Below are positions 1,573-22,287 of a stretch of DNA of 64,000 nucleotides, piece after piece. The number at the start of each line of letters is the position of its first letter. Within the stretch, counting starts at the first letter, position 1. The DNA is taken from positions 1 to 64,000 of the forward strand of contig NZ_MQTZ01000044.1 in NCBI RefSeq assembly GCF_001939115.1, in the 5' to 3' direction. The notes under the pieces were generated by a model. It did not search any database, was not told where the DNA came from, and saw only the letters and a list, made by a program, of their open reading frames with translations. The DNA comes from Leptolyngbya sp. 'hensonii' (GTDB taxonomy: Bacteria > Cyanobacteriota > Cyanobacteriia > GCF-001939115). The position numbers were made by a program, and so were the translations under genes.

Positions 1573-3072
1573 ATGAGAACCCAGGTTTCTCGAAGAACGA
1601 TTTTATTCTCGGTTTTGGCAGCTTCATCGGGATTGGTAGCAGCCTGCTCAGGGGGACTGGTTGCCAGTGTGAGTGAGAATTCTTCGAAGAAGAAAGTCAT
1701 CCGAATTGCGATCGGAACACAGGATCAAGTCATCAATACAGCCACGGGTGGCCCAGTTATTCGAGAAGAGAAATTACTGGAAAAATACCTGCCGAAGACT
1801 GGTAAATACGAGAATGTTGAATACAAAATTGAGTGGTCTAGCTACACTTCTGGGCCTCCAATTACTAACAAAATGTTGGCGAATCAAATTGACATTGGCA
1901 TGATGGGTGATTTTCCTGCCACGATCAACATGACCACCTTTCAGAAGAAAGGGGGTGGGGTGAAAACACTCTACGTTGCCACCCTGGGCTATGGGGCCAC
2001 AGGGGCTGGCAATGCGGTACTCGTGCCGAAGGATTCTTCGATTAAAACCCTGGCTGATCTGCGGGGCAAACAGGTTTCGGTTCCTTTTGGTTCAGCAGCC
2101 CATGGGATGCTGCTGAAGGCATTGCAGGATTCAGGACTGGACTCTGAGAAGGATCTGAAACTGATTAGTCAGGCTCCAGAGGTGGGCGGCACCAGTTTGC
2201 GCACCAATCAGATTGATGCCCACGCCAACTTTGTCCCTTTTGGTGAACTCTTTCCATTCCGGGGGTTTGCCCGCAAGATTTTCGATGGTGCCCAAACTGG
2301 AGTACCCACCTTCCATGGGGTGTTGGTGAGATCAGACTTTGCCCAGCAATATCCTGAAATTGTCGTCGCCTATCTGAAGGCGTTACTGGAAGCCAACAAA
2401 ATGCTGCGGGAACAGCCTGAAGCGATCGCAACGAAGGTGGAAGAATGGTCTGGCGTTGAGCGAGAAGTGGTGTATATGTTCCTGGGACCGGGAGGCTTAC
2501 AACGGCTCAATCCCACCATTCGACCGGTCAACTTTGATGCCCTCAAGAACAGTGTCATCACCCTCAAGCAACTCAAGCGCCTGGAGGAGGATGTGAATCC
2601 CAATGATATCTCCCAATGGGCCGATGACAGCTTCCTGAAACAGGCCATTCAGGAGATGAACCTGAAATACGATGACCTCGCTACGGGGGATGAGTTTCCG
2701 ATCGAGGGTCTGGATGCCGTGACCCAGGAGCCGATCAAAGACACCAAACTGGCTGCTCAAATCTGGGTCAAGGGAGAGGAGAAGGTGATGAACTTTGCCT
2801 CAATCAAGACCATGATGGGAATGCTACAAAAGCTGAAGGCTGATGGGAAAAAGGCAACGGGAGCTATTTTTGTCCATGACTTTAACCAGGGTTGGAAGCT
2901 CTTTGCTGAAAATTCCTTCTTTGTGCGCAAAGGAGATGAGATCGTCGCCTTCCTGAGTGAAAAAGCAGCCCAGAACCATGCCAGCAAGATTGGGGCTCAG
3001 GTGGCCAGCTTCAAAGCCTTACAGGACCTGTCTGCCCGAGAAATCTCACGGCCCGCTGGCGCATACTCCTGA
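1573..3072 (+). CDS. ABC transporter substrate-binding lipoprotein (sulfonate/nitrate/taurine class) with C-terminal extra domain
   Basis: Periplasmic solute-binding protein, 499 residues from ATG 1573, which has GGGAGAG 7 bases upstream; an upstream in-frame ATG at 1537 lacks a site. The N terminus has a twin-arginine-like stretch (SRRTIL, 6-11), a hydrophobic core and a lipobox ending LVAAC with Cys25, so it should be a lipoprotein. Residues 42-385 are the SsuA/TauA/NrtA fold (GPP at 94-96, GDFP at 112-115, SAAHGM at 174-179, HANFVPF at 217-223, VVAYLKAL at 264-271). Residues 391-485 are an extra domain beyond the usual family length; FASIKTMMGML, AIFVHDF...W and VAFLSEKAAQNHASKIG resemble NosL-like domains, a tentative call. 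It heads a presumed operon with permease and ATPase. The substrate is unknown; the sulfur-gene context favours an organosulfur compound. Confidence 0.88.
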   Translation: MRTQVSRRTILFSVLAASSGLVAACSGGLVASVSENSSKKKVIRIAIGTQDQVINTATGGPVIREEKLLEKYLPKTGKYENVEYKIEWSSYTSGPPITNKMLANQIDIGMMGDFPATINMTTFQKKGGGVKTLYVATLGYGATGAGNAVLVPKDSSIKTLADLRGKQVSVPFGSAAHGMLLKALQDSGLDSEKDLKLISQAPEVGGTSLRTNQIDAHANFVPFGELFPFRGFARKIFDGAQTGVPTFHGVLVRSDFAQQYPEIVVAYLKALLEANKMLREQPEAIATKVEEWSGVEREVVYMFLGPGGLQRLNPTIRPVNFDALKNSVITLKQLKRLEEDVNPNDISQWADDSFLKQAIQEMNLKYDDLATGDEFPIEGLDAVTQEPIKDTKLAAQIWVKGEEKVMNFASIKTMMGMLQKLKADGKKATGAIFVHDFNQGWKLFAENSFFVRKGDEIVAFLSEKAAQNHASKIGAQVASFKALQDLSAREISRPAGAYS

Positions 3073-3165
3073 TTTCACGGAATGGAGTGCATGGATACAG
3101 TTGTGCAATCCAGTTCTATGAAACAGTCACTCCATCGGTCTTGATCTATTCGTCCGGAGAATCTT

Positions 3166-4056
3166 ATGTCTGGTTCACCTTCAGGCCGTTCTGCCCAGGT
3201 TGGGTTGATGGATCGGGAGGGCGTTATGGGGACCATGCGCCCTCACCCATCGCCATCAGAGCGATCGTTCCCCTTCTCGACAGCTAAAACAGTCAAAACG
3301 ATCTGCCGCATTCTGTCACTATTTCTCTTCTTTGGCATCTGGCAGATTTTATGCATGGTCAAATTCAATGTCTTCATCAATTTCACCTATGTGCCCACCC
3401 CGATCGAAGTGGCCTCGGCCCTGGTGCGCTTCATCGCCCAGAATCCGATGACCCACCTGAATGCCAGCATCATGCGGGTTTTGGTTGGTTTTGGTGCGGC
3501 AGCGTTTCTGGGCATCGGCTTGGGAATTTTGATTGGCTGGTTTTCAGTGATCGAAGACCTGGTTTTTATGCCTCTGGAGTTACTCCGACCGATCCCAGCT
3601 GTGGCCTGGATTCCGCTGGCCATTTTGATGTTTCCCAATGCCGAATCCGGCATGATTTACATCACCTTTGTGGGCGCGTTTTTTCCCATTTTGATCAGCA
3701 CGATCAAGGGGGTTGAAGGAACTGACCTGGTGTTACTGCGGGTGGGCCAATGTCTGGGGGCCAATTCCTGGCACACTTTTAAGGACATTGTGGTACCTGG
3801 AAGTATGCCCAGCATCTCAAGCGGGTTAGTCATCGGCATGGGCAATTCCTGGTTCTGTCTGGTGACTGCCGAAATTTTGGCCGGACGGTTCGGGATTGGC
3901 TACCTCACCTGGGAATCCTATGTAACTTCCAACTATCCCCCGATCGTCATGGGGATGCTGCTCATTGGCCTGCTGGGTGCCATCAGCTCCTATGTTGTCG
4001 ATCGGGCGACCCAATGGCTGATGCCCTGGCGGATCACCAAAAAACAGGGCCATTAA
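3166..4056 (+). CDS. ABC transporter permease, SsuC/TauC/NrtB type
   Basis: Inner-membrane permease of 296 residues with about six to seven hydrophobic segments; the first begins near residue 45 (ILSLFLFFGIWQIL). The cytoplasmic coupling loop is visible as LGANSWHTFKDIVVPGSMPS, matching the EAA loop of the sulfonate/nitrate/taurine family. It follows the binding protein by 93 bases and precedes the ATPase by 43, so the three make one importer. Start: ATG 3166 has GGAGA 6 bases upstream, but ATG 3226 has a stronger GGGAGGG 4 bases upstream and would remove a disordered 20-residue leader; both keep all membrane segments. Substrate is shared with the neighbouring binding protein and is unknown. 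Confidence 0.9.
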   Translation: MSGSPSGRSAQVGLMDREGVMGTMRPHPSPSERSFPFSTAKTVKTICRILSLFLFFGIWQILCMVKFNVFINFTYVPTPIEVASALVRFIAQNPMTHLNASIMRVLVGFGAAAFLGIGLGILIGWFSVIEDLVFMPLELLRPIPAVAWIPLAILMFPNAESGMIYITFVGAFFPILISTIKGVEGTDLVLLRVGQCLGANSWHTFKDIVVPGSMPSISSGLVIGMGNSWFCLVTAEILAGRFGIGYLTWESYVTSNYPPIVMGMLLIGLLGAISSYVVDRATQWLMPWRITKKQGH

Positions 4057-4099
4057 GTCTGATTGATCACACCAATGAGTTGTAAAGAGGGGAGATGTC

Positions 4100-4918
4100 G
4101 TGTCAACGCTAGTGACGCAACCATTGCAAACTGAGACCCAGGGATTAGTTGAGGTCGAGAATTTATCCGTTGCCTTTCGGCGCAAAGGGCATTTCATCCC
4201 GGTGTTGGATGCAATCTCGACTCGGATAGAACCCGGTGAATTTGTCTGCTTACTGGGGCCTTCCGGGTGCGGCAAGTCTACCATGCTCAACGTGATTGCT
4301 GGATTTATCAAGCCGACGACCGGTCAAGTCTTGCTGGATCATCGACCGATCGAGAAACCGGGGGCCGATCGGGGCTTTGTCTTCCAGCAATATTCCCTCT
4401 TGCCCTGGAAAACGACATTTCAGAATGTCGAATTCGGTTTAAAGATTCAGGGAATGTCCAAAGCCAAGCGGGAAGAACGGGTCAATTACTATCTGAATCG
4501 AGTTGGGCTGTACAAGCACCGCCATTCCTATCCGTACCAGTTATCGGGGGGAATGCAGCAACGGGCCAGCATTATTCGAGCCCTGGTGAATGCGCCGTCT
4601 GTGCTGCTAATGGATGAGCCTTTTGCAGCCCTGGATGCCCAAACTCGTCACATGATGCAGGAGTTGCTCTTAGACATCTGGAGTGAGCTAAAACCAACGG
4701 TTATTTTTGTCACCCATGACATTGAGGAAGCGGTATTTCTCAGCGATCGGATCTTTGTCATGGGGGTCAACCCGGGTCGAATTAAGGAAATCGTCAAAGT
4801 TTCCCTGCCTCGGCCACGCCATGTAGACGATATGCTATCTGCAGAGTTTTTAGCAATTAACCGCCAGATCTTTGATCTGATTCGGGAAGAAACCCTGAAA
4901 CACATGGACATGGAATAA
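4100..4918 (+). CDS. ABC transporter ATPase, SsuB/TauB/NrtD type
   Basis: Nucleotide-binding subunit of the importer, 272 residues. Walker A is GPSGCGKST, the Q-loop is QQYSLLPW, the signature is LSGGMQQRA and Walker B is VLLMDEPFAALD, followed by the switch histidine in VTHDIEEA; all catalytic elements are intact. It starts with GTG at 4100 after a strong GAGGGGAG; an ATG at 4095 is out of frame. The C terminus is short, with no binding-protein-like domain such as NrtC and CmpC carry; in this locus that module is attached to the regulator next door. The stop codon lies one base from the stop of that convergent regulator gene, leaving no room for an intergenic terminator. Confidence 0.93.
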   Translation: MSTLVTQPLQTETQGLVEVENLSVAFRRKGHFIPVLDAISTRIEPGEFVCLLGPSGCGKSTMLNVIAGFIKPTTGQVLLDHRPIEKPGADRGFVFQQYSLLPWKTTFQNVEFGLKIQGMSKAKREERVNYYLNRVGLYKHRHSYPYQLSGGMQQRASIIRALVNAPSVLLMDEPFAALDAQTRHMMQELLLDIWSELKPTVIFVTHDIEEAVFLSDRIFVMGVNPGRIKEIVKVSLPRPRHVDDMLSAEFLAINRQIFDLIREETLKHMDME

Positions 4919-4919
4919 A

Positions 4920-6929
4920 TCAAGCTGCCAATTTTGGCATAAATTCAGATTGAATCCAGCGATCGAGGTTGAGGCCCTGCAGGGACTCATTCCCAGGAAT
5001 TGCGCTCAGTGCGGCCACATGGGTGCTTAACCAGTCCGGGCGAATTTGCATTTCGGCAAAGAACCGTCCTGATGTTGCCGTCTGCTGAGAACCACTCAAA
5101 ATCCGATGCACAATTTCTGCTTCCAGCTTTGTCCAGCGACTGATTAAGCTGGCCGCAGCAGGGGTTGTGTCATACCAGTGTTGGGCTGCAGCCAATGCTT
5201 GCAAATAGGCAACCACCACATCAGGGTAGTGATCGGCCAAGTCACCGCTGACAACCACCCCATAAAAGGCTGGCAGGGGCTCTGTGGTCCTATCTGTCAG
5301 GTATCGAAACTGCCCCCGATGACAGGCAATATCATGGAAGGGGGCAAAGTGGGCGTAGCCATCGGCGGCCTGCTCAAAGTCAAACAGGGTAGCTGCATTG
5401 CCATGCTTGAGGGAGGCAACGGTCACATCCTCCAGCAAATTGGCGGCATTCAGCGATCGCAGCACCATCCCATGGGCCGACGATCGCAGGGGTACGGCAA
5501 TCACCCGCCCACGCAGGTCTTCAATCTGTTGCAGGCGCGAGGCATGGGGCACGATCACCGCATTGCAGGAGCCATCCGGGTTGATGGCGACAAAGCTGAC
5601 CAGACGAGTGGAACAGACTTCGGATTGCTGGGATTGCAACGCACTTAAGAGCAGGGGATAGTCTCCCAGGATGCCAATATTCAACTGGCCAGTGGCTAAC
5701 CCCTCCACGATCGGGGCTCCCGTGGGAAAATCGCACCATTGAATTTGGTAGTGAATATTGCTGTAGCGTTTCTCCTGGGGTAGGAAATGTTCCAGCAGAC
5801 CCAGGCGTTGAATAATCAGGCCAGCAGTGACGGTGGGAATGGTGCTATTTTGAATCCCAATGTTGAGAGTCAGGCGATCGGGCCGTTGGATGGCCATCGG
5901 TCGCAGGGTGAAATTGGGCGATCGCAGCCGCATCCAGCTTGCAGATGGGGTGGTTACAGGCTTGGGGAACTGGGATGAAGATTCGATGGGTTTGGCCTGG
6001 GGAAGCAAATTGATCAGTTTTTGGGCTGGATTGGGTTCAACGGATCGGCGTTTTGTGCAAGTCACGCAGGCTTCCAGCGAATCACTGAGACGCTTGAGAG
6101 ACAGCAAAAAGATGTTCCCTGGCAGGGAAAATTCCTGCAACGGAATTGAAACCAGAATCCCGGATTCACACTCTGATCGAAACTCCAGTTCTGAAGCAAA
6201 CCCCAAATAGTTTCCCCGCTCCATATAGGTTCGCATCAAGCTCAGGGTGTCGATCGTTTCAACCTGGTCAAACTCTGCCAGGGCCAGTCCTAATTCTGCC
6301 AATCTGGCCTCAAAAAACAGGCGACTGGGAGAGCCAGACGGCTGCAACACCCAGGGGTAATGCTTTAGATCATGCAGGCTCAGCCAGGGCTGACTGGCCA
6401 GGGTATGGGAGGCAGAGACAAAGACACCGTAATGCACGGCATCGATGACCACCGTGGAAATTTCTGCGAATTCGTCGTAATTGATATCTGAAATGCCCAG
6501 GTCAATCTGTTGGGTGACGATCGCCCGATACAGTTCCTCTGGGGACTGGAAGACCTGGCATTGGGTCTGGATGCGGGGATAGGTCTGGCGATAGGTGAAC
6601 AGAATATCAGGCAACCAGCCATGGGCGATTGCCCCTGTTGTGCCAATCCGCAGGTTGCCAAATTTGCCTTTCTTGATTTCCTCAATCTTTTGGAGTAACT
6701 GGTTTTCGACGGCGATTAATTTTACACCTTCTTCTAATAGGAATTGCCCAACTTCTGTGAGTTGAATCTTTCGCCCTAGTCGATAGAACAATGGCACACC
6801 CAGCTCTGATTCCAAGGATTTAATCTTGGCACTGACAGCGGGCTGGGTCAAATTTAAGGCATCGGCAGCCTCAGTAAAGCTGAGATGCCGCGCCACTTCT
6901 AAAAAGACTCGAACTTGATAAACTTCCAT
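4920..6929 (-). CDS. LysR-type regulator fused to an NrtA/SsuA-like binding-protein domain
   Basis: A 669-residue protein, about twice normal LysR length. Residues 1-60 are the LysR winged helix-turn-helix (SFTEAADALNLTQPAVSAKI). Residues 91-290 are a conventional effector-binding domain (LRIGTTGAIAHGWLPDILF onward). After a Pro/Ser-rich linker (about 291-350) comes a second complete domain, 351-665, that matches the transporter's own binding protein feature by feature: IGIQN, GAP, LGDYP, LRSSAHGM, YAHFAPF, FYGVVVS and VVVAYLQAL. It has no signal peptide, so this fold is cytoplasmic. NrtC and CmpC, the cyanobacterial nitrate and bicarbonate ATPases, carry a comparable binding-protein-like module, but on an ATPase. 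I infer it senses the imported substrate and controls this importer and the divergent redox operon. The frame is uninterrupted with normal composition, so it is not an assembly join. Confidence 0.92.
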   Translation of the reverse strand: MEVYQVRVFLEVARHLSFTEAADALNLTQPAVSAKIKSLESELGVPLFYRLGRKIQLTEVGQFLLEEGVKLIAVENQLLQKIEEIKKGKFGNLRIGTTGAIAHGWLPDILFTYRQTYPRIQTQCQVFQSPEELYRAIVTQQIDLGISDINYDEFAEISTVVIDAVHYGVFVSASHTLASQPWLSLHDLKHYPWVLQPSGSPSRLFFEARLAELGLALAEFDQVETIDTLSLMRTYMERGNYLGFASELEFRSECESGILVSIPLQEFSLPGNIFLLSLKRLSDSLEACVTCTKRRSVEPNPAQKLINLLPQAKPIESSSQFPKPVTTPSASWMRLRSPNFTLRPMAIQRPDRLTLNIGIQNSTIPTVTAGLIIQRLGLLEHFLPQEKRYSNIHYQIQWCDFPTGAPIVEGLATGQLNIGILGDYPLLLSALQSQQSEVCSTRLVSFVAINPDGSCNAVIVPHASRLQQIEDLRGRVIAVPLRSSAHGMVLRSLNAANLLEDVTVASLKHGNAATLFDFEQAADGYAHFAPFHDIACHRGQFRYLTDRTTEPLPAFYGVVVSGDLADHYPDVVVAYLQALAAAQHWYDTTPAAASLISRWTKLEAEIVHRILSGSQQTATSGRFFAEMQIRPDWLSTHVAALSAIPGNESLQGLNLDRWIQSEFMPKLAA

Positions 6930-6986
6930 CGCGGGTTCTTAATAGGTGGGACAGATCCAACAAACAGATCCAACAAAAGGAATATT

Positions 6987-7118
6987 GGGGCGCATGTCAC
7001 TTTTGCAAATTTGCCCACCCCAGGGGAAGCCGCTCTGCGTCTAGATCCCCCAACCCCTTCTCCCCGCTTGGGGATTTAGGGTGTAGCTTGCTTGGGCTAC
7101 AAAGGTGACATGCTCCCG
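6987..7118. repeat. MITE-like interspersed repeat, copy 2, flanked by AATATT
   Basis: A 132-bp element with terminal inverted repeats GGGGCGCATGTCAC (left) and GTGACATGCTCCC (right). AATATT lies directly left (6981-6986) and one base beyond the right end (7119-7124), consistent with a target-site duplication, though the hexamer is itself palindromic. It sits in the shared promoter region between the LysR-fusion gene and the AprA-like gene and may influence either promoter. Confidence 0.75.
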
Positions 7119-7262
7119 AATATTGCAGCTATACAGGCAAAATTACCTCGCCTTTACTCATTCAAGGGTTTTATCAGTCTATAAAAGACGGAGATTTCAA
7201 AACAGTGATGTTTGTTGCAAAATGTGGCTTAAGTAGTTCCATTTCATCAACCAAATTGTTTT

Positions 7263-7325
7263 TTTCGACGGCAATCGAAACAGCATTGTGGAACACAGGC
7301 ATTTCCTAATTCGATCGAGTCGAAT
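7263..7325. promoter_or_regulatory. candidate LysR-type operator: two related TCGA dyads
   Basis: Two similar dyads lie about 45 bases apart upstream of the AprA-like gene: TTTCGA-N6-TCGAAA (7263-7280) and ATTCGA-N5-TCGAAT (7309-7325). The second contains a T-N11-A core (TCGATCGAGTCGA), the classical LysR-family recognition pattern. The pair would fit the upstream recognition and downstream activation sites of a divergently encoded LysR regulator. The assignment is inference from position and symmetry. Confidence 0.4.
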
Positions 7326-7363
7326 CACTGACGACGGATGTTTTGCAAAGGGAGGAATTTTGC

Positions 7364-9067
7364 GTGAACACTCAGTTAATGCAGACCGATGTGCTGGTTA
7401 TTGGTGGTGGTACGGCAGGAACAATGGCAGGCATTAAGGCCAAGCAAGCAAATCCCAATGGCGATGTCCTGATCTTAGAGAAAGCAAATATCCGACGCAG
7501 TGGTGCGATCGCGATGGGTATGGATGGGGTGAATACGGCGGTGATTCCGGGTCACTCCACACCAGAACAATATGTGCGGGAGGTGACGATCGCCAATGAT
7601 GGGATTGCAAACCAGAAGGCTGTCTACCAGACTGGAAAATTGGGGTTTGCCGTCATCCAGGAACTGGAGTCTTGGGGAGTTAAGTTTCAGAAAGATGCCC
7701 AGGGCAACTACGATCTGAAGCAGGTCCATCGGGTGGGCAAATACGTCCTCCCCATGCCAGAAGGCAAAGACCTGAAGACGATTCTGACGCGCCAGGTGAA
7801 GCGCCACAAGGTTAGGGTGACGAATCGAGTCATGGCCACCCGGGTCTTAGTGCAGGATGGTCGAGCGATCGGGGCCGTTGGGTTCGATGTGCGGAATGGG
7901 GATTTTGTCGTCATCCAGGCGAAGGCAGTGATCCTCTGTACGGGGGCCTGTGGCCGCTTGGGTCTGCCCGCCTCTGGCTACCTCTATGGCACCTACGAAA
8001 ATCCCACCAATGCAGGGGATGGGTATGCCATGGCTTACCATGCGGGTGCTGAACTGAGCAACATTGAATGCTTCCAGATTAATCCCCTGATCAAAGACTA
8101 CAATGGGCCTGCCTGTGCCTACGTGGCTGGACCCTTTGGAGCCTACACGGCCAATGCCGAAGGACACCGCTTCATTAGCTGCGACTACTGGAGCGGCCAG
8201 ATGATGCTGGAGATTTACAAGGAATTGCATTCTGGTAAAGGGCCGGTCCATCTGAAGATGAATCATCTGGATGAAGACACGATTTCTGAGATTGAAACCA
8301 TTCTCTGGGCCAATGAACGTCCAAGCCGGGGCCGATTCCACGCCGGTCGGGGTGAAAACTACCGTACCCATGGGGTTGAGATGAACATCTCCGAAATTGG
8401 TCTCTGCAGTGGCCACAGTGCATCGGGGGTCTGGGTCAACGAACGGGGCGAAACCACCGTACCAGGACTCTATGCCGCTGGCGATATGGCCAGTGTGCCC
8501 CATAATTACATGATTGGGGCCTTTGTCTATGGTCGGATCTGTGGTGAAAATGGGATGGACTACAGTGCCAGGGTTGACCATGGAGATCCCGATCGGGAAT
8601 GGCTGGAGGCGGAAAAAGCCAGAATTTATGCCCCCCTCGATCGTCCCAATGGGGTTCCCCACACCCAGGTAGAATACAAACTCCGGCGATTGGTCAACGA
8701 CTATCTCCAACCCCCCAAATCCCAGCATCGGATGGAAATTGGCCTGAGCCAGTTTGTCCGTTATGAAGAAACCCTCAGCCTGATGGGGGCTCGCGATCCC
8801 CATGAGTTAATGCGGTGCATGGAGGTGCATTTTATTCGGGACTGTGCCGAAATGGCGGCCCGGGCTTCCCTTTACCGCAAAGAGAGTCGCTGGGGCCTCT
8901 ACCACTATCGTCTGGATTACCCCGAAAAGAACAACGAAGAGTGGTTCTGTAACGTCAATCTCAAGAAAGATGAAGCCGGAGAGATGGTGCTATTTAAGTG
9001 CCCTGTTGATCCTTACATTGTGAGCGTTGATCTCGATCATGAAGTGTACGATGTAGCCGTTCGTTAA
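7364..9067 (+). CDS. AprA-like FAD flavoprotein (APS reductase alpha/fumarate reductase family)
   Basis: A 567-residue flavoprotein. The FAD Rossmann motif VIGGGTAGT is at residues 12-20; RRSGAIAMGMDGVN (44-57), ACGRLG (195-200), GYAMAYHAGAELS (220-232), GHSASGVWVNERG (350-362) and VPGLYAAGDMAS (366-377) give the layout of adenylylsulfate reductase alpha and its fumarate reductase relatives; the tail LDYPEKNNEEWFCNVNLKKD also resembles AprA. It starts at GTG 7364, 7 bases after GGGAGGA; a TTG at 7343 is unlikely because that site would lie inside the gene. With the ferredoxin 15 bases downstream it should form an AprBA-like heterodimer: FAD chemistry on the substrate, electrons through two [4Fe-4S] clusters. 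Cyanobacteria normally reduce sulfate by the assimilatory CysH route, so true APS reduction is not assumed; the substrate may be whatever the adjacent importer delivers. Confidence 0.85.
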   Translation: MNTQLMQTDVLVIGGGTAGTMAGIKAKQANPNGDVLILEKANIRRSGAIAMGMDGVNTAVIPGHSTPEQYVREVTIANDGIANQKAVYQTGKLGFAVIQELESWGVKFQKDAQGNYDLKQVHRVGKYVLPMPEGKDLKTILTRQVKRHKVRVTNRVMATRVLVQDGRAIGAVGFDVRNGDFVVIQAKAVILCTGACGRLGLPASGYLYGTYENPTNAGDGYAMAYHAGAELSNIECFQINPLIKDYNGPACAYVAGPFGAYTANAEGHRFISCDYWSGQMMLEIYKELHSGKGPVHLKMNHLDEDTISEIETILWANERPSRGRFHAGRGENYRTHGVEMNISEIGLCSGHSASGVWVNERGETTVPGLYAAGDMASVPHNYMIGAFVYGRICGENGMDYSARVDHGDPDREWLEAEKARIYAPLDRPNGVPHTQVEYKLRRLVNDYLQPPKSQHRMEIGLSQFVRYEETLSLMGARDPHELMRCMEVHFIRDCAEMAARASLYRKESRWGLYHYRLDYPEKNNEEWFCNVNLKKDEAGEMVLFKCPVDPYIVSVDLDHEVYDVAVR

Positions 9068-9082
9068 TCAGGAGAAGAAACC

Positions 9083-9310
9083 ATGGCGTTAGTTGAACAA
9101 TGGGTTGATGTGCCCGTGATTGTAGACGAATCAAAGTGTTTGGAGAAATGCACGGCTTGCATTGAAGTATGTCCATTAGATGTGTTAGCCAAAAACCCTG
9201 AAACTGGCAAAGCCTACATGAAATATGATGAATGCTGGTTCTGCCTTCCCTGCGAAAAGGAATGCCCAACCAATGCCATCACTGTGCAAATTCCATTCCT
9301 GTTACGGTAA
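9083..9310 (+). CDS. AprB-like 2x[4Fe-4S] ferredoxin
   Basis: A 75-residue ferredoxin. Two cluster motifs are complete: CLEKCTACIEVCP (C-x3-C-x2-C-x3-CP) and CWFCLPCEKECP (C-x2-C-x2-C-x3-CP). The second, with its leading Trp and the sequence after it (NAITV), resembles AprB, the beta subunit of APS reductase, but the long C-terminal tail that wraps AprA in dissimilatory enzymes is absent. It has a good ribosome-binding site (AGGAGAAG) and follows the flavoprotein by 15 bases, so the two are co-translated partners. Soluble, cytoplasmic electron carrier; the electron donor is not evident in the window. Confidence 0.9.
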   Translation: MALVEQWVDVPVIVDESKCLEKCTACIEVCPLDVLAKNPETGKAYMKYDECWFCLPCEKECPTNAITVQIPFLLR

Positions 9311-9409
9311 TGTTTGACCTGCTACAGCTTGATCAAACAGATTGAGCTATTTTGCTGCCCAGGTGCTGGATTAAAAGACTTATGCCCATGCATTTACAGA
9401 GGAGCAATC

Positions 9410-10384
9410 ATGTCGCTTGACACCGATTCCGAACTGAAAATCTGGATTGACCTATTGCAATCAAGCGAGGAAAGCGATCGCCTGGTTGCTGTCAAAACAC
9501 TGCAACATTTATATGATGATCGCGCGATCGATGCCCTGATTGCTGCCCTGAAAGATGAGAGCCCTGCCGTCCAGAAATTAGCCGTGACCGCCCTGTGGGA
9601 ATTTGCCAATCCCAAAGCCGTGCCTGCCCTGATCGCCTGTCTGGGCTCCTCCGATGAGGACATTCGTGAGGAAGCAAAATCAGCCCTAGGTGAACTTGTA
9701 TCGGGTGACCATTTACTGTTACTTCTGGATGCCCTACAAACGGGTGATGGGCCAGTACAATTGCATGTTCTCTATCTGTTACGCAAGATCCATGATGTTC
9801 AATGTTTGCCCTACGTGCTGCCATTCTTCGAGTCTACCCATCCACCTCTGCGGGAAGCAGCCGTCACCACCCTGCGCTATCTGAACCAGGTGAACCAGTG
9901 CCCTCCGGCGATCGCCCTGATGGATGATGTGGACGAGAAAGTTCGGCGGGCAGCGGCCCTGACCCTGGGACACCTGAGTGATGCTGATGTGGTGGGCCGA
10001 CTGTGTCGCGCCATGACGGATGACCCCGATTGGCAGGTGCGGCGGGATGCCGCCAAATCTCTCGCCCTCCATGCCGATGCCATTGCCGTTCCCGCCTTAG
10101 AGGTGGCGATCACCGATGCCCACTGGCAGGTGCGCAAGTTTGTGATTCAGGCCATTCAGAAAACGCCCCAGAGCAGCACGATGCCTGCTCTGATTCAGGC
10201 GTTAGCAGATGAATATTCGGATGTGCGGCGGGATGCGGCGATCGCCCTCGGCCTGCTGAGAAATCCGGAGGCCTTGCAGGCGCTGCAACAGGCCCTGGAT
10301 GACCCCGATCGGGATGTCAGCATCCATGCGGAACGCGCCATTCTGAAAATTCAGGAATCCCTACAGGAACCCTCCAATGCCTAG
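9410..10384 (+). CDS. HEAT-repeat protein
   Basis: A 324-residue soluble helical-repeat protein. The start at ATG 9410 follows AGAGGAG; the frame runs open to 9314 but that extension is Cys-rich and lacks a site. Nearly the whole chain is about ten HEAT/PBS-lyase-like repeats with recurring 'DWQVRRDAAKSLA', 'DSVRRDAAIALGLL'-style helices (for example residues spanning DEKVRRAAALTLGHL and HWQVRKFVIQAI). Such proteins are scaffolds or, in cyanobacteria, sometimes bilin lyases; no lyase-specific signature was seen. It overlaps the next gene by 8 bases, so translation is coupled to the Fe-S carrier. A role in assembling or docking the AprBA-like complex is inference. Confidence 0.85.
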   Translation: MSLDTDSELKIWIDLLQSSEESDRLVAVKTLQHLYDDRAIDALIAALKDESPAVQKLAVTALWEFANPKAVPALIACLGSSDEDIREEAKSALGELVSGDHLLLLLDALQTGDGPVQLHVLYLLRKIHDVQCLPYVLPFFESTHPPLREAAVTTLRYLNQVNQCPPAIALMDDVDEKVRRAAALTLGHLSDADVVGRLCRAMTDDPDWQVRRDAAKSLALHADAIAVPALEVAITDAHWQVRKFVIQAIQKTPQSSTMPALIQALADEYSDVRRDAAIALGLLRNPEALQALQQALDDPDRDVSIHAERAILKIQESLQEPSNA

Positions 10385-11465
10385 TCATGCCTCTCCCTTT
10401 CGCCAGACCCACCCGGAGGATGCTCCTCCGCCCACCCCGATGGATGCCGTCACCGAAGCCCGTTATCGGGAAGCTGTACAATGCCTGAAGCAGATTATCG
10501 AGCCTGTTCTGAAGCGCGATATGGTCAGTTTAGGCATGGTGCGTAACCTGCGCGTCGTGGATGATTATATCTCTCTGCGGCTCTATGTCGGGCAACATCA
10601 GCACTATCTCCGCCAGGTGGTTCTCGATCGACTCCATCCCTTACCCTGGTGCAAAAAAGCCTATGTACAACTCTGCACCATTCCTGGTGTTCGGACTACG
10701 CTGGCGATTTCCAGCGGTAAGGGGGGAGTGGGCAAATCCACGACCTCGGTGAACTTGGCTACAGCTCTGAGCCTGCAGGGAGCCAGAGTGGGGTTGCTGG
10801 ATGCGGATGTCTATGGCCCCAATGTTCCCCAGATGTTGGGGATCAATCCGGTAGAAGTGTCCCTGGTTGACACCCCGGAGGGACAACGGTTTCTCCCCCT
10901 GGAGGCCCAGGGTATCAAGGTCATGTCCGTGGGGCTGCTGGCAGCACCGGATCATCCCCTGGCCTGGCGTGGTCCAGTTCTCCACAAGATCATTACCCAA
11001 TTCATCCATGAAGTTGCCTGGGGCGATCTGGATTACCTGCTGATCGATCTGCCGCCGGGCACTGGAGATGCCCAGATTACCATCATTCAGGAAAGTCCAA
11101 TTTGTGGGGTTCTTCTGGTGACAACTCCCCAGCAGGTGGCGATCGCCGATGTCCGCCGCAGCATTCATATGTTTCGTCGCGTTGGTATTCCAGTGCTGGG
11201 AATTGTGGAAAATATGAGTTATCTCCTCTGTGGGCATTGTGGTGAACCCACACCAATCTTTGGCAGCGGTGGTGGCCAACAACTGGCTGAGGAATTACAA
11301 ACCCCTTTGCTGGGACAGGTGCCGATCGATCCACTTCTATGCGCGGGTGGTGATGCTGGAACTCCCCTGACCCTGGCCTATCCCAACTCAGTTCCTGCCC
11401 AGGTCTTTCGTCAGATCGCAGCGGCCCTGGATCACACGTTTGCTCCAGTGCCGATCGAGGCATAA
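10377..11465 (+). CDS. Mrp/ApbC/NBP35-type Fe-S cluster carrier ATPase
   Basis: A 362-residue P-loop protein. Residues about 25-95 form a MIP18/DUF59-like domain; the ATPase begins near residue 105 with the deviant Walker A SSGKGGVGKST, followed by LLDADVYGPNVPQML and DLPPGTGDAQ. A CGHC (C-x2-C) pair in YLLCGHCGEPTPIFG is the cluster-binding motif of the Mrp/NBP35 group. These proteins hold and deliver [4Fe-4S] clusters to apo-proteins. Placed with an AprB-like ferredoxin that needs two clusters, it is probably a dedicated maturation factor. Its ATG overlaps the end of the HEAT-repeat gene; it is followed after 29 bases by the YeiH transporter gene. It could also be the organism's general Mrp if no other copy exists. 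Confidence 0.92.
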   Translation: MPSHASPFRQTHPEDAPPPTPMDAVTEARYREAVQCLKQIIEPVLKRDMVSLGMVRNLRVVDDYISLRLYVGQHQHYLRQVVLDRLHPLPWCKKAYVQLCTIPGVRTTLAISSGKGGVGKSTTSVNLATALSLQGARVGLLDADVYGPNVPQMLGINPVEVSLVDTPEGQRFLPLEAQGIKVMSVGLLAAPDHPLAWRGPVLHKIITQFIHEVAWGDLDYLLIDLPPGTGDAQITIIQESPICGVLLVTTPQQVAIADVRRSIHMFRRVGIPVLGIVENMSYLLCGHCGEPTPIFGSGGGQQLAEELQTPLLGQVPIDPLLCAGGDAGTPLTLAYPNSVPAQVFRQIAAALDHTFAPVPIEA

Positions 11466-11494
11466 CCCATCTTTTCACAAGTCATCTGAACACT

Positions 11495-12553
11495 ATGCGG
11501 CAGAAACTTCAAGCATCCCTGCCGGAGCAGAATTTTGCGATCAAAATTCGTGGGATCTATTGGCGATCGCTCCTCCTTCTTCTGGCACCAGGCCTGCTCC
11601 TGAGCTTGAGCCTAGCCAGTATTGCCCTGTTGCTGCGAACCACCTCAGGGCTAACGGCCTTGAGCCCACTCATGCTGGCGATCGTCCTGGGGATTCTGGT
11701 GCGAAACCTGTCGCAGGTGCCAGCCCTGTACCAGCCGGGAATTACCTTTGCCCTGAAGCGACTCCTGCGGGTGGCGATCGCCCTGCTGGGGTTACAGCTT
11801 AGCTTGGTACAACTACAACAGGTGGGTCTGGTTGGGTTTATGGTTATGACAGTTGTGCTGTGGCTCAGCTTCGCCTTCACCTGCTGGCTTGGACATACTT
11901 TGCAAATGCGGCGAAACCTGGTCTGTCTGATTGCTGCAGGCACCGCTATCTGCGGTGCCTCTGCGATCGTGGCCACCAGTACCGTTCTGGATAGTTCGGA
12001 TGAGGATACGGCCTATGCGGTGGCCACTGTGACGTTGTTTGGGACCCTGTCCATGCTCCTCTATCCGCTGGTGCAGTCGTTTCTACAGCTATCGGCCCCA
12101 GCTTTTGGGGTTTGGTGTGGAGCCTCGATCCACGAAGTTGCTCAGGTCATCGCCGCTGCTTTCCAGGTCAATGCCATCAGTGGAGATCTAGCCAGCATCA
12201 CAAAACTGTCGCGGGTTCTGTGGTTGGCTCCTCTGGCGATCGGTCTGGGACTGTTCACCCGCCCAGGGCGATCGGACCGTCCAGGTCTCCGCTCCTATCC
12301 CACTCTGCCCTGGTTTATCATCATTTTTGTCGGCTTGATCCTGCTCAACAGCACTGGCATCATTCCCGAATTACTGAAAACCGGCCTGGGCCAGATGAAT
12401 CAATATCTCCTGACGGTTGCCATGGCAGCCATGGGTTTAGAAACCCGGCTTCAGAACATTTGGAAGCTGGGGTTAAAACCAATCTATCTGGGAGGTGCGG
12501 CCTGGCTGTTTATTACCCTCTTGAGTTTGGGCCTGGTGAACCTGGTGTATTAG
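11495..12553 (+). CDS. YeiH/UPF0324-family putative sulfate exporter
   Basis: A 352-residue polytopic membrane protein with about ten hydrophobic helices. Family marks include LSPLMLAIVLGILVRNL near residue 55, KRLLRVAIALLGLQLSL near 90, AAGTAICGASAIVATS (mid-chain) and GASIHEVAQVIAAA, the conserved segments of the YeiH/'conserved hypothetical 698' family annotated as putative sulfate exporters. The transported compound has rarely been tested; the tight downstream TauE/SafE gene (9 bases) supports export of a sulfur oxyanion product. No ribosome-binding site is evident for ATG 11495. Same strand and close spacing suggest it belongs to the AprA-like operon. Confidence 0.85.
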   Translation: MRQKLQASLPEQNFAIKIRGIYWRSLLLLLAPGLLLSLSLASIALLLRTTSGLTALSPLMLAIVLGILVRNLSQVPALYQPGITFALKRLLRVAIALLGLQLSLVQLQQVGLVGFMVMTVVLWLSFAFTCWLGHTLQMRRNLVCLIAAGTAICGASAIVATSTVLDSSDEDTAYAVATVTLFGTLSMLLYPLVQSFLQLSAPAFGVWCGASIHEVAQVIAAAFQVNAISGDLASITKLSRVLWLAPLAIGLGLFTRPGRSDRPGLRSYPTLPWFIIIFVGLILLNSTGIIPELLKTGLGQMNQYLLTVAMAAMGLETRLQNIWKLGLKPIYLGGAAWLFITLLSLGLVNLVY

Positions 12554-12562
12554 GGAATCAGG

Positions 12563-13288
12563 ATGGAAACAGAAGTATCCCCATGGCTCATTGTCAGCAT
12601 TTTATTTCTCTCAACCCTGGTGCGATCGGCGGTCGGATTTGGCGATGCCTTGGTGGCGATGCCATTGCTGGTCCTGGTTACGGAACTTCGGATTGCCACC
12701 CCCCTGGTCGCCCTGATGGGCGTGACTACGGCCCTCACGGTGCTGTTACAGCAGTGGTCCACCCTGAGTTTTCGGGGAATGTGGCGATTGATTGGGGCGA
12801 CCCTAATCGGCATTCCCTTTGGCCTGGTGCTGATCCACATTGCACCAGAACGCTTGGCCAAACTCATTCTGGGTATCCTTCTGATGCTATATGGGCTGTA
12901 TGGGGTGGGTGGGTTCTCCCTGCCCCAACTGCGGGATGAGAAATGGGCTGGGATGTTTGGATTTACTGCTGGAATTTTGGGGGGGGCCTACAACACCAAT
13001 GGCCCACCGATTATTATGTACGGCACATTGCGCCGCTGGCCTCCTGACTACTACCACATCAATTTGCAGGGGTATTTCTTCCTGACCAATTGTTTGGTGG
13101 TGGTCAGTCATGGGCTGACTGGCCTGTGGACAGAGCCCGTGATCGGGCTTTATCTAGCGTCACTCCCCGCGATCGGCGTTGGCGTTATTTTGGGGAGTAT
13201 GATCCATAAACAAATTCCGGCAGCCACCTTCGAGAAGCTCATTTATGGGTTACTCGCCACGATCGGTCTCCTGTTTATCTTCAAATAA
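12563..13288 (+). CDS. TauE/SafE-family sulfite/sulfonate exporter
   Basis: A 241-residue membrane protein with about seven hydrophobic segments. The family duplication is visible: RSAVGFGDALVAMPLLVLV in the first half and GFTAGILGGAYNTNGPPIIMY in the second, both the characteristic 'G(F/L).G...G.GGG' turns of the TSUP/TauE-SafE superfamily. These export sulfite, sulfoacetate or related anions. It begins 9 bases after yeiH-like and probably ends the operon; a hairpin lies 12 bases downstream. A second TauE/SafE protein is encoded at 24.1 kb; the two are only distantly alike. Confidence 0.88.
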   Translation: METEVSPWLIVSILFLSTLVRSAVGFGDALVAMPLLVLVTELRIATPLVALMGVTTALTVLLQQWSTLSFRGMWRLIGATLIGIPFGLVLIHIAPERLAKLILGILLMLYGLYGVGGFSLPQLRDEKWAGMFGFTAGILGGAYNTNGPPIIMYGTLRRWPPDYYHINLQGYFFLTNCLVVVSHGLTGLWTEPVIGLYLASLPAIGVGVILGSMIHKQIPAATFEKLIYGLLATIGLLFIFK

Positions 13289-15054: not shown

Positions 15055-15335
15055 TCGCCAGTTAGCCTTGCAGGTGAACAATTCTGTACCAATACCGGGT
15101 TTTCCCCGACTGGCTTTTGGTAGACCCAACTGCAGAACGCCATTGTCAATACAGCCAGCACCATACGAGGTTCTGGCAAGGGAGAAACCGGCTGCTCAGG
15201 AGCAAAGGGCTGCGATCGCCAGGGATTTTCTTAACTGTCTTTAAAGTGTCTTTCACCACCCATTCAGGCCATTGACCCATGATCAAGATTCAGTTCCCCA
15301 CATCCTTCCGACTGAATCACCCACGACACACCAAT

Positions 15336-15833
15336 ATGAAGAAACGACACTTTTTATGGGCGGGTACCGCAACAGTTGGCACAGCCCTGTTATCCCATTA
15401 CTTACCCGGCAAAAGCAAGGGCGAAATCGCAACGGCAGCAGCTCGATTTGAAATCACTAAAACAGAGCAGGAATGGCGCAAGATTTTGACCGCTGATCAA
15501 TTTCAGGTATTACGACAGCACGGAACCGAGCGGCCTGGCAGCAGCCCCCTGGACAAGGAATATGGCAAAGGACTCTTCGCCTGTGCCGGGTGTAATCTGC
15601 CATTGTTCAGCTCAAAAACCAAATTTAACAGTGGCACAGGTTGGCCCAGCTTTTACGCCCCCATTGATGGAGCTGTAGGAACCACGATCGACACCTCTTT
15701 CTACATGACTCGTGTAGAAGTGCACTGTCGTCGATGCGGCGGACACCTGGGCCATGTGTTTGATGATGGCCCCAAACCAACTGGAAAACGTTATTGCATC
15801 AATGGCATCGCTCTGAAATTCATTCCCGGTTAA
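15336..15833 (+). CDS. msrB: peptide-methionine (R)-S-oxide reductase, exported form
   Basis: MsrB repairs the R epimer of methionine sulfoxide. The catalytic segment RYCINGIAL contains the resolving nucleophile Cys, and the two zinc pairs are present (CAGC and CRRC in HCRRCGGHLGHVFDDGP). From ATG 15336 the protein is 165 residues with a basic, hydrophobic leader (KKRHFLWAGTATVGTALL), suggesting export or membrane anchoring; the frame also runs to ATG 15279, which would bury that leader, so I prefer 15336. No good ribosome-binding site is seen for either. It is convergent with the Rrf2 gene, stops 8 bases apart. An extracytoplasmic Msr beside sulfur transport genes suggests protection of the periplasmic binding proteins, which is inference. 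Confidence 0.9.
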   Translation: MKKRHFLWAGTATVGTALLSHYLPGKSKGEIATAAARFEITKTEQEWRKILTADQFQVLRQHGTERPGSSPLDKEYGKGLFACAGCNLPLFSSKTKFNSGTGWPSFYAPIDGAVGTTIDTSFYMTRVEVHCRRCGGHLGHVFDDGPKPTGKRYCINGIALKFIPG

Positions 15834-15841
15834 CCCTAGGA

Positions 15842-16288
15842 CTAAATGTAATACATCGGATTGCTTGGATGCGTTGTGTCCCGCCTTTGGCAGATATCTG
15901 CCAGAGTATATTGCTCCAGCACTTCCTGATGCTCTTGCCTTACTTCCTGCCAGATTTCATGTAAGAGTTGCCTTTCCAACGTCATGGGGTTACTCAGGTC
16001 ATTTCTGGCATCCACCGGACCACCATGGGTCAGCGAAAGTGATCGGATAATTTCTGGCAGGGTAATCTGCTGGGGCGATCGGGTCAGAATATAGCCTCCC
16101 CTGGCACCCCGCTGACTCTGCACAATTCCACTCAGACGCAGGTTCGCCAAGATTTTCTCCAGATAGCGATCGGGAATAACCTGTCTCCTGGCAATTTCGC
16201 TGAGGGATAGGGAGGCTCCCCGCTGTCGGGCCGCTGCCAGTTCCATGAGAGCCATGAGAGCGTACTCGATTCTGGAGGATAATTCCAT
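15842..16288 (-). CDS. Rrf2-family transcriptional repressor 1 (CymR-like)
   Basis: A 148-residue Rrf2 regulator: MELSSRIEYALMALMELA at the N terminus, helix-turn-helix LSLSEIARRQVIPDRYLEKIL, then the wing LRLSGIVQSQRGARGGYILT. The three clustered cysteines that bind the Fe-S cluster in IscR, NsrR and RsrR are missing; only one Cys is present, near the C terminus. That fits CymR, the Rrf2 repressor of cysteine metabolism in Firmicutes, which acts together with cysteine synthase. A cysK gene lies about 650 bases upstream on the same strand. It follows the NIL-domain gene by 8 bases as a two-gene operon whose promoter region carries operator-like site A (16708-16733), so autoregulation is likely. 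Confidence 0.9.
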   Translation of the reverse strand: MELSSRIEYALMALMELAAARQRGASLSLSEIARRQVIPDRYLEKILANLRLSGIVQSQRGARGGYILTRSPQQITLPEIIRSLSLTHGGPVDARNDLSNPMTLERQLLHEIWQEVRQEHQEVLEQYTLADICQRRDTTHPSNPMYYI

Positions 16289-16943: not shown

Positions 16944-17948
16944 TTAGGTCACAGCCAGTGCTTTTTCCCCTTCTGGAACTGCGGCTGACAAGTCTTTAAA
17001 CAAGACGACTTCCGGCAAGTCCTTAAATAGGGCCGTGCTGAGATAGCGCTCCCCAAAACTGGGTTGGACCATGACAATCAGCTTGCCTGCATTTTCAGGC
17101 CGTTGCCCCACCCGGACTGCTGCCGCCAGAGCTGCACCAGAGGAGATCCCCGATAGCAAGCCTTCTTCCCGAGCCAATCGACGACTGAAAGCGATCGCAT
17201 CCTCACTGCTAACTTGCACCACTTCATCCACCAGATCGGTTCTTAATACCTGGGGAACAAATCCTGCGCCAATGCCCTGAATCTTATGAGGTCCGCCGGT
17301 TCCACCAGATAAAACCGGACTTTCTTGGGGCTCTACTGCGATCGCCTGGAATCCCGGCTTGCGAGCTTTGATCACCTCGGCTACCCCCGTAATCGTGCCC
17401 CCCGTTCCCACGCCTGCAATCAAAATATCGATCTGACCATCCGTATCAACCCAAAGTTCTTCTGCAGTTGTTTCCCGATGGACTTGAGGATTGGCGGGAT
17501 TTTTGAACTGTTGGGGCATAAAGGCATTAGGGACAAAAGCAGCAATCTCCTCGGCCCGTCGCACGGCTCCCTTCATGCCTTCACTGGCAGGTGTTAAAAC
17601 TAGCTGAGCCCCGTAGGCTTGCAACATGGCCCGCCGCTCCAGGCTCATGGTTTCTGGCATCGTCAGAATCAGGTGATAACCTTTGGCTGCGGCAACCATG
17701 GCCAGGGCAATCCCCGTATTTCCAGACGTGGGCTCCACCAGAACCGTTCGCTTCGGATCAATTAAACCCGCTGCTTCAGCAGACTGAATCATACTGACAC
17801 CAATCCGGTCCTTCACGGATGCAGCCGGGTTCATCCCTTCACACTTGACCACAATTCTGGCAACACACCCCTCAGCCTGGGGAATGCGGTTCAGCTTTAC
17901 CAGGGGTGTTTTACCAACCAATTCCGTCACATCATTTGCAATTCGCAT
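16944..17948 (-). CDS. cysK: cysteine synthase A (O-acetylserine sulfhydrylase)
   Basis: PLP enzyme making cysteine from O-acetylserine and sulfide. From ATG 17948 ([20 protein letters not shown]) it is 334 residues; that start follows AAAGAGG, while the longer frame to 17993 adds an atypical leader. Visible motifs: PAASVKDR with the PLP lysine at residue 46, [10 protein letters not shown] at 73-82, [11 protein letters not shown] for the cofactor phosphate loop, and [11 protein letters not shown]. The C terminus has a 20-residue extension beyond typical CysK ([20 protein letters not shown]). A strong terminator follows. Operator-like site B lies about 70 bases upstream, so repression by one of the Rrf2 proteins is likely; in Bacillus CysK itself is CymR's partner. 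Confidence 0.96.
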
Positions 17949-18020
17949 CTTGAATTCCTCTTTGGGTACCAGTTTCCCGGTCGAATTCGTCATAGATGGG
18001 ACCAGGGATAACCTATGATA

Positions 18021-18450: not shown

Positions 18451-19308
18451 CTATTTGACATCTTTAATTCGGGTTTTGCGCTCCAGAATTTCCTTCAATA
18501 CCAGGGTGACTACGGCCAGCAGGGCGAGGAGAACGGCAGCAGAGTAGGCTACTTCAGTTTCATATTGTTTGTAGGTATCTTCCACAAACAGCGGCAGGCT
18601 TTGAGTCTGGCGGGCGATATTTCCGGAAACCACAGACACCGCTCCGAATTCGCCCATGGCTCTAGCATTAGTCAGGATCAAACCATAGAGCAAGCCCCAA
18701 CGAATACTGGGCAACGTAATGCGCCAGAAAGTTTGCCAGCCATTGGCTCCCAGGGTTTTGGCCGCCTCTTCCTGATCCAGACCCACTTCCTCCAGAACCG
18801 GGATCACTTCCCGGGCCACAAAGGGCATGCTGACAAAGGCAGTGGCCAGCACCATGCCTGGAAAGGCAAAAATGATCTTGATGTCGTGGGCTTGCAGAAA
18901 GCTACCAAACCAGCCCTGCCGACCATAGAGCAACACCAACATCAAACCTGCGACGACAGGAGAGATCGAAAAAGGTAGGTCAATAATGCTCAGAATGAAA
19001 GCCCTACCGGGCACTTTGTAACGGGTCACTGCCAGGGCAGCACAAAGCCCAAAGACAGTATTCAGAGGCACCGCGATCGCAGCCAGGGCGACCGTCAGTT
19101 GGGCCGCAAAGATAAAATCGGGACGGGTCAGATTGGAGAAGAAGGGGCCAATTCCACTCTTAAAGGCTTGATAGAAAACATTCAGAGCCGGGATATACAG
19201 GATCAGGCCCAAGTAGGCAATGCCAATACCAATTAGGACAGCAGGAATCCAACTCCGTTGTTTGGAGGAGGAGGCGATCGATCGAGGTGGAGTCTTAACG
19301 GTGGTCAT
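18451..19308 (-). CDS. cysW: sulfate ABC transporter permease CysW
   Basis: A 285-residue inner-membrane permease of the CysTWA-Sbp sulfate/thiosulfate importer. Six hydrophobic segments; the coupling loop is [25 protein letters not shown]. CysW-type residues [18 protein letters not shown] precede the last helices. It overlaps the end of cysT by 14 bases, so translation is coupled, and is followed after 2 bases by NIL-domain protein 2. The N-terminal 20 residues are polar and Ser/Pro-rich. Confidence 0.94.
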
Positions 19309-20167: not shown

Positions 20168-20230
20168 GGGAGGCTATCCATTGCAGATCAGTGGGCATGA
20201 AATTGCATGATTAAGGTGTTAGAAATGAGA

Positions 20231-20286
20231 GTTAAATCCCGTTACATCCCCTCTCAGGAGGGATAAGGGACATAACGGGATTTAAC
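20231..20286 (-). promoter_or_regulatory. two-tier hairpin between sbpA and cysT
   Basis: GTTAAATCCCGTTA (20231-20244) and TAACGGGATTTAAC (20273-20286) form a perfect 14-bp stem; inside it ATCCCCTC can pair with GAGGGAT around a TCAG loop. No T-run follows on the minus strand. It probably acts at RNA level, either as partial terminator or as a 3' stabiliser that lets the binding-protein mRNA outlast the permease part, as known for malE-malF. Confidence 0.6.
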
Positions 20287-20306
20287 CCACGATCTTCTGT
20301 TGATCG

Positions 20307-21449: not shown

Positions 21450-21462
21450 AGCCACCTCTAAT

Positions 21463-21489
21463 CTACGGTTATTCACTCGGAGTACCGGT
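21463..21489. promoter_or_regulatory. candidate Rrf2 operator, site C (sbpA promoter)
   Basis: CTACGGTTATTC (21463-21474), then ACTC, then GGAGTACCGGT. It sits 14 bases upstream of the sbpA ATG, a position suited to repression, and aligns gap-free with site A. Confidence 0.55.
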
Positions 21490-22186: not shown

Positions 22187-22248
22187 GCAGATTTCATTGG
22201 CATCAGGTGAGATGGTACGTCCTCGGACCTGATGCCAATGAAATCTGC
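22187..22248 (+). promoter_or_regulatory. perfect 22-bp hairpin in the cysA leader
   Basis: Arms 22187-22208 (GCAGATTTCATTGGCATCAG then GT) and 22227-22248 are exact reverse complements around an 18-base loop (GAGATGGTACGTCCTCGG). The hairpin ends 40 bases before the cysA GTG and leaves its ribosome-binding site free. There is no T-run. Candidate leader regulatory RNA, stability element or protein-binding palindrome. Confidence 0.8.
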
Positions 22249-22287
22249 GATGTGCCTATATTCTTTTATCACTCTGGAGCGTTACCT

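Follow-up and report, generated by a model that had tools for sequence, protein, structure and literature searches.

A candidate organosulfur-scavenging module built around an AprA-like flavoprotein in Leptolyngbya sp. 'hensonii' and other bacteria

A stretch of 64,000 nucleotides from the cyanobacterium Leptolyngbya sp. 'hensonii' (GCF_001939115.1, contig NZ_MQTZ01000044.1, positions 1-64,000 of the forward strand; hereafter the window) carries a real, widespread and uncharacterised sulfur-acquisition module. Its ten genes, at 1573-13288, encode the solute-binding protein (SBP), permease and ATPase of an ATP-binding cassette (ABC) importer, a fusion of a LysR regulator with a further SBP domain (LysR-SBP), an AprA-like flavoprotein, an AprB-like ferredoxin, a HEAT-repeat protein, an Mrp-type iron-sulfur carrier, and membrane proteins of YeiH-like and TauE type. 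A link of the module to sulfur is well supported, a role in sulfur metabolism is likely, and a sulfonate-class substrate is probable. The fuller proposal is evenly poised: a mobile organosulfur-scavenging system in which sulfonate-type import supplies a ferredoxin-fed flavin adenine dinucleotide (FAD) enzyme that frees the sulfur.

Known aerobic sulfonate scavenging relies on the O2-dependent enzymes SsuD or TauD. On the boldest and more tentative reading, an O2-independent reductive cleavage, the module would add a third route to oxygenation by SsuD/TauD and C-S cleavage by glycyl-radical enzymes, one spread by plasmids across at least five phyla. A widespread module with an iron-sulfur flavoenzyme in place of SsuD or TauD would also give a function to a large protein family misnamed fumarate reductase, and signs of sulfur limitation in genomes would have to be interpreted differently. 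Part of the gene set has surfaced before. A 2025 report on Acidithiobacillus plasmids predicts two cargo operons for organosulfonate uptake and assimilation, and a figure there draws a ferredoxin/APS reductase/GntR module with a NirT/TauT sulfonate transporter on plasmids that include pTcM1 (PMC12375680). We found that pTcM1 carries a GntR-flavoprotein-ferredoxin-HEAT-FdxA set of the same family as that of the window. The published mention is at annotation level, and the passage concerned does not treat the HEAT protein, Mrp or DUF971, LysR-SBP, the divergence of the active site or the wide distribution (PMC12375680). An earlier note, made from the DNA letters of the window, had called the system undescribed; because cargo of the same family was reported in 2025, the word is slightly too strong. 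The open literature yielded no experimental study of the family.

Results

Organisation of the module

All ten genes lie where the earlier note had placed them, in three units: SBP, permease and ATPase on the forward strand, lysR-sbp on the reverse strand, and flavoprotein, ferredoxin, HEAT, mrp, yeiH and tauE genes on the forward strand. A Pseudanabaena plasmid repeats the whole operon set, identical to that of the window, and core parts recur in at least five phyla, so the gene order is not due to chance.

A flavoprotein family with a divergent active site

The flavoprotein (7364-9067, forward strand) is the presumed catalytic subunit; its true start is most likely the GTG at 7364, which is preceded by GGGAGG at 7350-7355. 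It belongs to the family NF006131/PRK08275 (1012.3 bits against a curated cut-off of 587) and fails the AprA equivalog models (TIGR02061, 188 against 641.75 bits; PRK06854, 312 against 557). A profile of the family scores 274 bits with 3'-phosphoadenosine 5'-phosphosulfate (PAPS) reductase (PAPSR), 207 with AprA, 122 with SdhA and about 91 with FrdA and NadB. In a quick maximum-likelihood tree, in which long branches were flagged, the family forms one clade (SH-aLRT 99) apart from SdhA and NadB, and is placed with a support of 82 as sister to AprA plus PAPSR, which group together at 100. The predicted structure has a confidence (pLDDT) of 69 and finds PAPSR and then AprA as its top Foldseek matches; because this confidence is moderate, the model was used for fold-level placement only.

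Residues were compared in an alignment of 100 sequences, 98 of which truly belong to the family. The other two rows come from a different flavoprotein family and presumably represent the second FAD proteins of loci L060 and L066-L070, described below. R265, W234, E141 and N74 are active-site residues of AprA in the A. fulgidus structure. R265 is replaced by Leu (L249) in 98 of the 100 aligned sequences, the exceptions being those two rows. Among the 98 members W234 has become Tyr (Y218), E141 is Lys or Arg (K126), and Q145, an APS-site residue of AprA (PMC10322725), is Arg or His (R/H130). These members retain Asn74 and the His of a GGH/SGH motif common to PAPSR; PAPSR, unlike the family, also retains the AprA-type Arg and Trp. 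His242 of SdhA aligns with Asn (N247), and no counterpart was found in this alignment for the catalytic Arg286 of SdhA, which falls at C280 where the alignment is uncertain.

Because the residues that bind adenosine 5'-phosphosulfate (APS) and those of catalysis are replaced, and because the clade is separate, the flavoprotein qualifies neither as an APS reductase nor as a fumarate reductase, and the alignment presents its active site as conserved within the family and new. The 'APS reductase couple' of the earlier note thus loses its enzymatic label. The note had also considered that the protein might fall in a known fumarate reductase clade with no link to transport; it lies in a clade of its own, and transport genes are present at its loci. 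No FrdB/SdhB or membrane anchor genes were found in the window cluster or among the recurrent neighbour clusters, and the database name of NF006131/PRK08275 and NF010374/PRK13800, 'fumarate reductase/succinate dehydrogenase flavoprotein subunit', is contradicted by the residues. As identities for the window protein, a true APS or PAPS reductase was rejected on the active-site residues, and fumarate reductase, succinate dehydrogenase and L-aspartate oxidase on the tree and the residues together.

Several cyanobacteria have a second, distant FAD-protein/ferredoxin pair near the module, with its own clade in the tree (L066:20210-21700, L069:7003-9019, L070:316-2400, L060:1-1857 and L109:18156-18536); in Andreprevotia only the ferredoxin of this pair was seen. 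A separate AprA-like flavoprotein (G404:C19:14069-15679, L216), with 34% identity to that of the window, sits on a long branch outside the AprA and PRK08275 clades.

Probable partner proteins of the flavoprotein

Co-occurrence was assessed over 49 non-redundant homologous loci, each of at least 15 kb, with 57 random windows as controls. The ferredoxin (9083-9310, forward strand) has eight Cys for two [4Fe-4S] clusters, and its profile matches AprB (3gyx_B, 42 bits) and the PAPSR beta subunit (8a8o_C, 34 bits); its motif CWxCxxC, in which CWxC holds the relay Trp, occurs in 49/49 loci and 0/57 controls. The HEAT-repeat gene (9410-10384, forward strand; PF13646) is equally constant, present in every locus and no control window, and in five proteobacterial genomes, both Acinetobacter among them, there is no HEAT match apart from that of the flavoprotein locus. 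The HEAT protein matches the C-terminal half of NCBIfam NF010374, which models a natural flavoprotein-HEAT fusion; in Tsukamurella (Actinobacteria) the two are one protein of 893 amino acids, beside the same importer and ferredoxin. The co-occurrence and the fusion together argue that flavoprotein, ferredoxin and HEAT protein form one complex, with the HEAT protein likely serving as a third subunit or as an assembly or docking partner.

The Mrp/NBP35-type carrier (10377-11465, forward strand; PF10609, 315 bits) is the second strong Mrp of the genome, the only other being on contig C42 (326 bits). Its gene overlaps that of the HEAT protein by 8 nucleotides in the window and on the Pseudanabaena plasmid, which makes the translational coupling proposed in the earlier note plausible. 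The domain DUF971 also occurs in iron-sulfur carriers of the HCF101/Mrp type. Either Mrp or DUF971 is present in 42/49 loci and the two never occur together, an exchange that suggests an iron-sulfur loading step, in line with the carrier role envisaged in the note, and that is confounded by lineage, since Mrp is found in cyanobacteria and DUF971 in proteobacteria. The two membrane proteins follow on the forward strand. The first (11495-12553; PF03601), of the putative sulfate exporter family, scores 197 bits with TIGR00698, below the NCBIfam cut-off of 232.6, so the YeiH named previously is present only as 'YeiH-like'; the second (12563-13288) is a TauE/SafE-family protein over the PF01925 cut-off (77.9 bits).

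Importer

The SBP, permease and ATPase are all present in 37/49 loci. The window SBP (1573-3072, forward strand) scores 134.6 bits with TIGR01728, the SsuA family, below the cut-off of 163.5; the nearest matches of its family profile are TauA (6ssy, 89 bits) and SsuA (2x26, 70 bits). Its structure model (pLDDT 86) has taurine- or sulfonate-binding TauA/SsuA proteins as its first eight Foldseek matches, with nitrate-, bicarbonate- and pyrimidine-binding proteins as weaker relatives. Pocket motifs, SAAHGM and HADFVPF for example, are common to cyanobacteria and proteobacteria, and this conservation suggests one substrate class. The permease (3166-4056, forward strand; PF00528) is of the SsuC/TauC/NrtB class, with the SaoP, NrtB, TauC and SsuC models all below cut-off, and the ATPase (4100-4918, forward strand; PF00005) is of the SsuB/TauB class, with a TauB-type model at 251 bits, likewise below cut-off. 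Assignment of the importer to the sulfonate class, nearest to SsuA/TauA in both sequence and modelled fold, is supported. The earlier note had offered sulfonates, taurine or nitrate; the sulfonate part stands, and nitrate is less likely. A nitrate importer was rejected, as TauA/SsuA rank first and NrtA is far weaker, and so was a selenium/organometal SAO system, for which the SaoA, SaoP and Sec-LysR models scored below cut-off only.

From cyanobacteria to proteobacteria the SBP has a conserved C-terminal domain (residues about 393-484 in the window protein) with a weak but significant match to NosL (7og7, 26.7 bits, E=1.7e-5). This SBP-NosL fusion and that of LysR with an SBP are unusual domain combinations.

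LysR-SBP and its putative binding box

LysR-SBP (4920-6929, reverse strand; 669 amino acids) combines LysR helix-turn-helix and effector domains with an NMT1_2 domain. Over 325 amino acids its SBP half shares 31% identity with the SBP of the importer (E=1e-43), which agrees with the sensor named in the earlier note. The cyanobacterial NrtC and CmpC, ATPases with a fused SBP-like regulatory domain, similarly borrow an SBP domain as sensor; in the module the sensor is joined instead to a transcription factor of the LysR type. An inverted repeat of T-N11-A type, TTTATCAGTCTATAAAA, lies at 7170-7186 (forward strand) in the gap that separates lysR-sbp from the flavoprotein gene; it recurs in the corresponding gap of other loci and is the putative LysR-SBP binding box. 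The window 17-mer is found within three mismatches in the same gap of 13/20 LysR-SBP loci, the window included (shuffled mean 0.08, maximum 2), a count inflated by close relatives such as L026 and L054. A relaxed form of the pattern occurs once in the window, where 0.01 is expected. Loci L039 and L051 have a further copy upstream of the SBP gene; in front of the SBP gene in the window the best match has six mismatches, and none is claimed.

Sulfur linkage

The recurrent neighbours of the module include SsuD/SfnG-type monooxygenases, SfnB/DszC, TauD, MetX/MetY, SbpA and CysT; none of the recurrent neighbour clusters is a family for acquiring nitrogen, phosphorus or carbon. Contexts around the module include ssu-like, metXY-tauD and SrpI-encapsulin ones, the last in Acinetobacter and Burkholderiaceae, where a SrpI family 2A encapsulin with cysteine desulfurase cargo and EpsC is nearby. 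At L104, L110, L111, L112, L116, L118 and L124 these three genes lie no more than a few kilobases from the flavoprotein operon. Sulfur-acquisition markers are present in 21/49 loci and 6/57 random windows (Fisher P = 2.5e-4), a test that is partly circular because the markers were chosen from the recurrent neighbours of those loci; in 28/49 of these longer loci no marker lies within about 10 kb. In a test defined a priori, three of five single-chromosome Nostoc-type genomes had SsuD no more than 50 kb from the flavoprotein (P ~1e-4). Nostoc-type loci mostly have no dedicated full importer, and SsuD is present in 10/10 of these genomes against 3/7 with the full importer and LysR-SBP (P = 0.015, phylogenetically confounded). 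The Leptolyngbya genome encodes no TauD or luciferase-family (SsuD) protein. It does encode two CysH-type PAPS_reduct proteins elsewhere, in keeping with the earlier view that the AprA/AprB-like pair is distinct from the host sulfate-reduction route.

Distribution

The flavoprotein exceeds the family cut-off in 17/386 cyanobacterial genomes and 15/143 genera, a patchy pattern, and is found on at least 50 plasmid records and in Pseudomonadota, Actinomycetota, Verrucomicrobiota and Myxococcota. Patchy occurrence, plasmid carriage and the many phyla suggest horizontal transfer of a mobile module. The gene set is recurrent, not a local accident.

Discussion

The sequence shows which genes are present and that they co-occur, the class of the importer, the phylogeny, the altered residues and the sulfur context; the substrate, the product, the direction of electron flow and the roles of the HEAT protein, Mrp and exporters are inferred. 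The importer would take up an organosulfur compound, for which a sulfonate is the likeliest candidate. LysR-SBP, by means of the SBP domain it carries, would sense this compound or one like it and regulate the flavoprotein operon from the box at 7170-7186. Inside the cell, the flavoprotein, ferredoxin and HEAT protein would act together on the imported compound. Electrons from a cellular reductant would cross the two [4Fe-4S] clusters, with the conserved Trp, to reach FAD, and FAD would drive the sulfur off, sulfite being its likeliest form. Mrp, or DUF971 in proteobacteria, would help to load the clusters; the released sulfur would be taken on by sulfite reductase and by CysK, whose gene lies nearby, and the TauE and YeiH-like proteins may vent surplus oxyanion.

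The reaction is taken to be reductive because electron-donor genes adjoin the module in some relatives, namely FdxA, ferredoxin-NADP reductase (FNR) and a GltD-like oxidoreductase of 1190 amino acids. Reductive release of sulfur by the flavoenzyme is a tentative proposal. More speculative by a shade is that flavoprotein, ferredoxin and HEAT protein constitute a new O2-independent desulfonating class, in which a flavin enzyme with the AprA fold would split the sulfur from imported sulfonates by reduction. Several considerations weigh against the scheme. The direction of electron flow is drawn from neighbouring genes; Leu takes the place of the sulfo-binding AprA Arg, and APS-reductase chemistry is not simply transferable; the marker test has its circular element and many loci lack markers; and no expression, growth or biochemical data on the family were found in the open literature, subscription journals being outside the search.

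The GltD-like protein (about 1190 amino acids; best match PRK06567, below cut-off) is found at L085, L093, L094, L102, L106, L121 and L122, in metagenome-assembled genomes of Halothiobacillus, Hydrogenophilales, Burkholderiales and related proteobacteria, and is a possible electron donor.

Two known kinds of system frame the comparison. AprBA and the Methanothermococcus PAPS reductase (8a8o) share with the module an FAD subunit and a two-[4Fe-4S] ferredoxin with relay Trp, and are its closest clade and top Foldseek matches; the module differs in its replaced substrate-binding and catalytic residues, in having its own HEAT partner and ABC importer, and in standing outside sulfate reduction. The ssuEADCB and tauABCD operons resemble it in importer class, sulfur context and accessory scavenging role, and ssu-like operons of Methylococcales (L091, L098) host it; they use the O2-dependent SsuD or TauD, which the iron-sulfur flavoenzyme of the module would replace or join.

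Among rival accounts, the one nearest to our proposal keeps sulfur scavenging and makes the flavoprotein oxidative: it would dehydrogenate the organosulfur compound and send electrons out through the ferredoxin, sulfite being lost later or by another enzyme. The FAD fold family does include the dehydrogenases SdhA and NadB, ferredoxin pairs can run both ways, and some loci carry hydrolases, amidases and monooxygenases, as for a multi-step pathway. Its nearest relatives in the tree, AprA and PAPSR, however, cleave a sulfur bond (PMC10322725), and the electron-input genes FNR, GltD-like and FdxA accompany the module; we judge this account unlikely. Somewhat less likely again is a redox enzyme that acts on a carbon or nitrogen compound and lies near sulfur genes only incidentally. 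The marker-free loci would fit such an enzyme, as would the varied ligands of SsuA/NMT1-type SBPs, including the weaker nitrate, bicarbonate and pyrimidine relatives, but the recurrent neighbours concern sulfur acquisition, the SsuD proximity test and the sulfur context of the window point the same way, and the SdhA-type His is Asn247, with the SdhA catalytic Arg lacking a recognised counterpart.

That the enzyme is an unusual APS or PAPS reductase, and so an extra enzyme of sulfate reduction, is very improbable. Its position as sister group of AprA and PAPSR, the AprB-like ferredoxin, and the retained Asn74 and GGH/SGH His would suit such a role; against it stand the substitutions at R265, W234, E141 and Q145, the first two of which PAPSR does not share, the dedicated sulfonate-type importer, and the CysH-type proteins that the genome already has. 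Slightly less credence still is due to the idea that the NosL-like domain signals a metal-bound ligand, for example one with copper, a complex that the flavoenzyme would reduce or strip: this domain of the SBP does match a copper chaperone and is conserved across distant lineages, and chrA occurs at several loci, but the match is weak and no copper-handling family is among the recurrent neighbours.

Surrounding sulfur region and further loci

The earlier note had seen one sulfur-related suite ending at 13288. The suite stands; its end does not, as sulfur genes reach 23316 and the sulfur region of the window therefore spans about 22 kb. Past a carotenoid-isomerase-like gene lie MsrB (15279-15833, forward strand; TIGR00357, 178.6 bits, over cut-off), a CymR-like Rrf2 regulator (15842-16288, reverse strand; over the TIGR00738 cut-off, with the CymR model at 101 bits, below its cut-off of 195) and CysK, cysteine synthase A (16944-17993, reverse strand; TIGR01139, 459 bits, over cut-off). 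The genes for CysW, CysT and the sulfate-binding protein SbpA follow (18451-21476, reverse strand; TIGR02140, TIGR02139 and TIGR00971, all over cut-off), then a second Rrf2 regulator and a CysA-type sulfate ABC ATPase (22207-23316, forward strand; TIGR00968, 428.6 bits, over cut-off). Among the other loci, L081 and L083 are from Prochlorococcus single-cell genomes and hold the full operon including YeiH, with an amidase and a second SBP/ATPase upstream.

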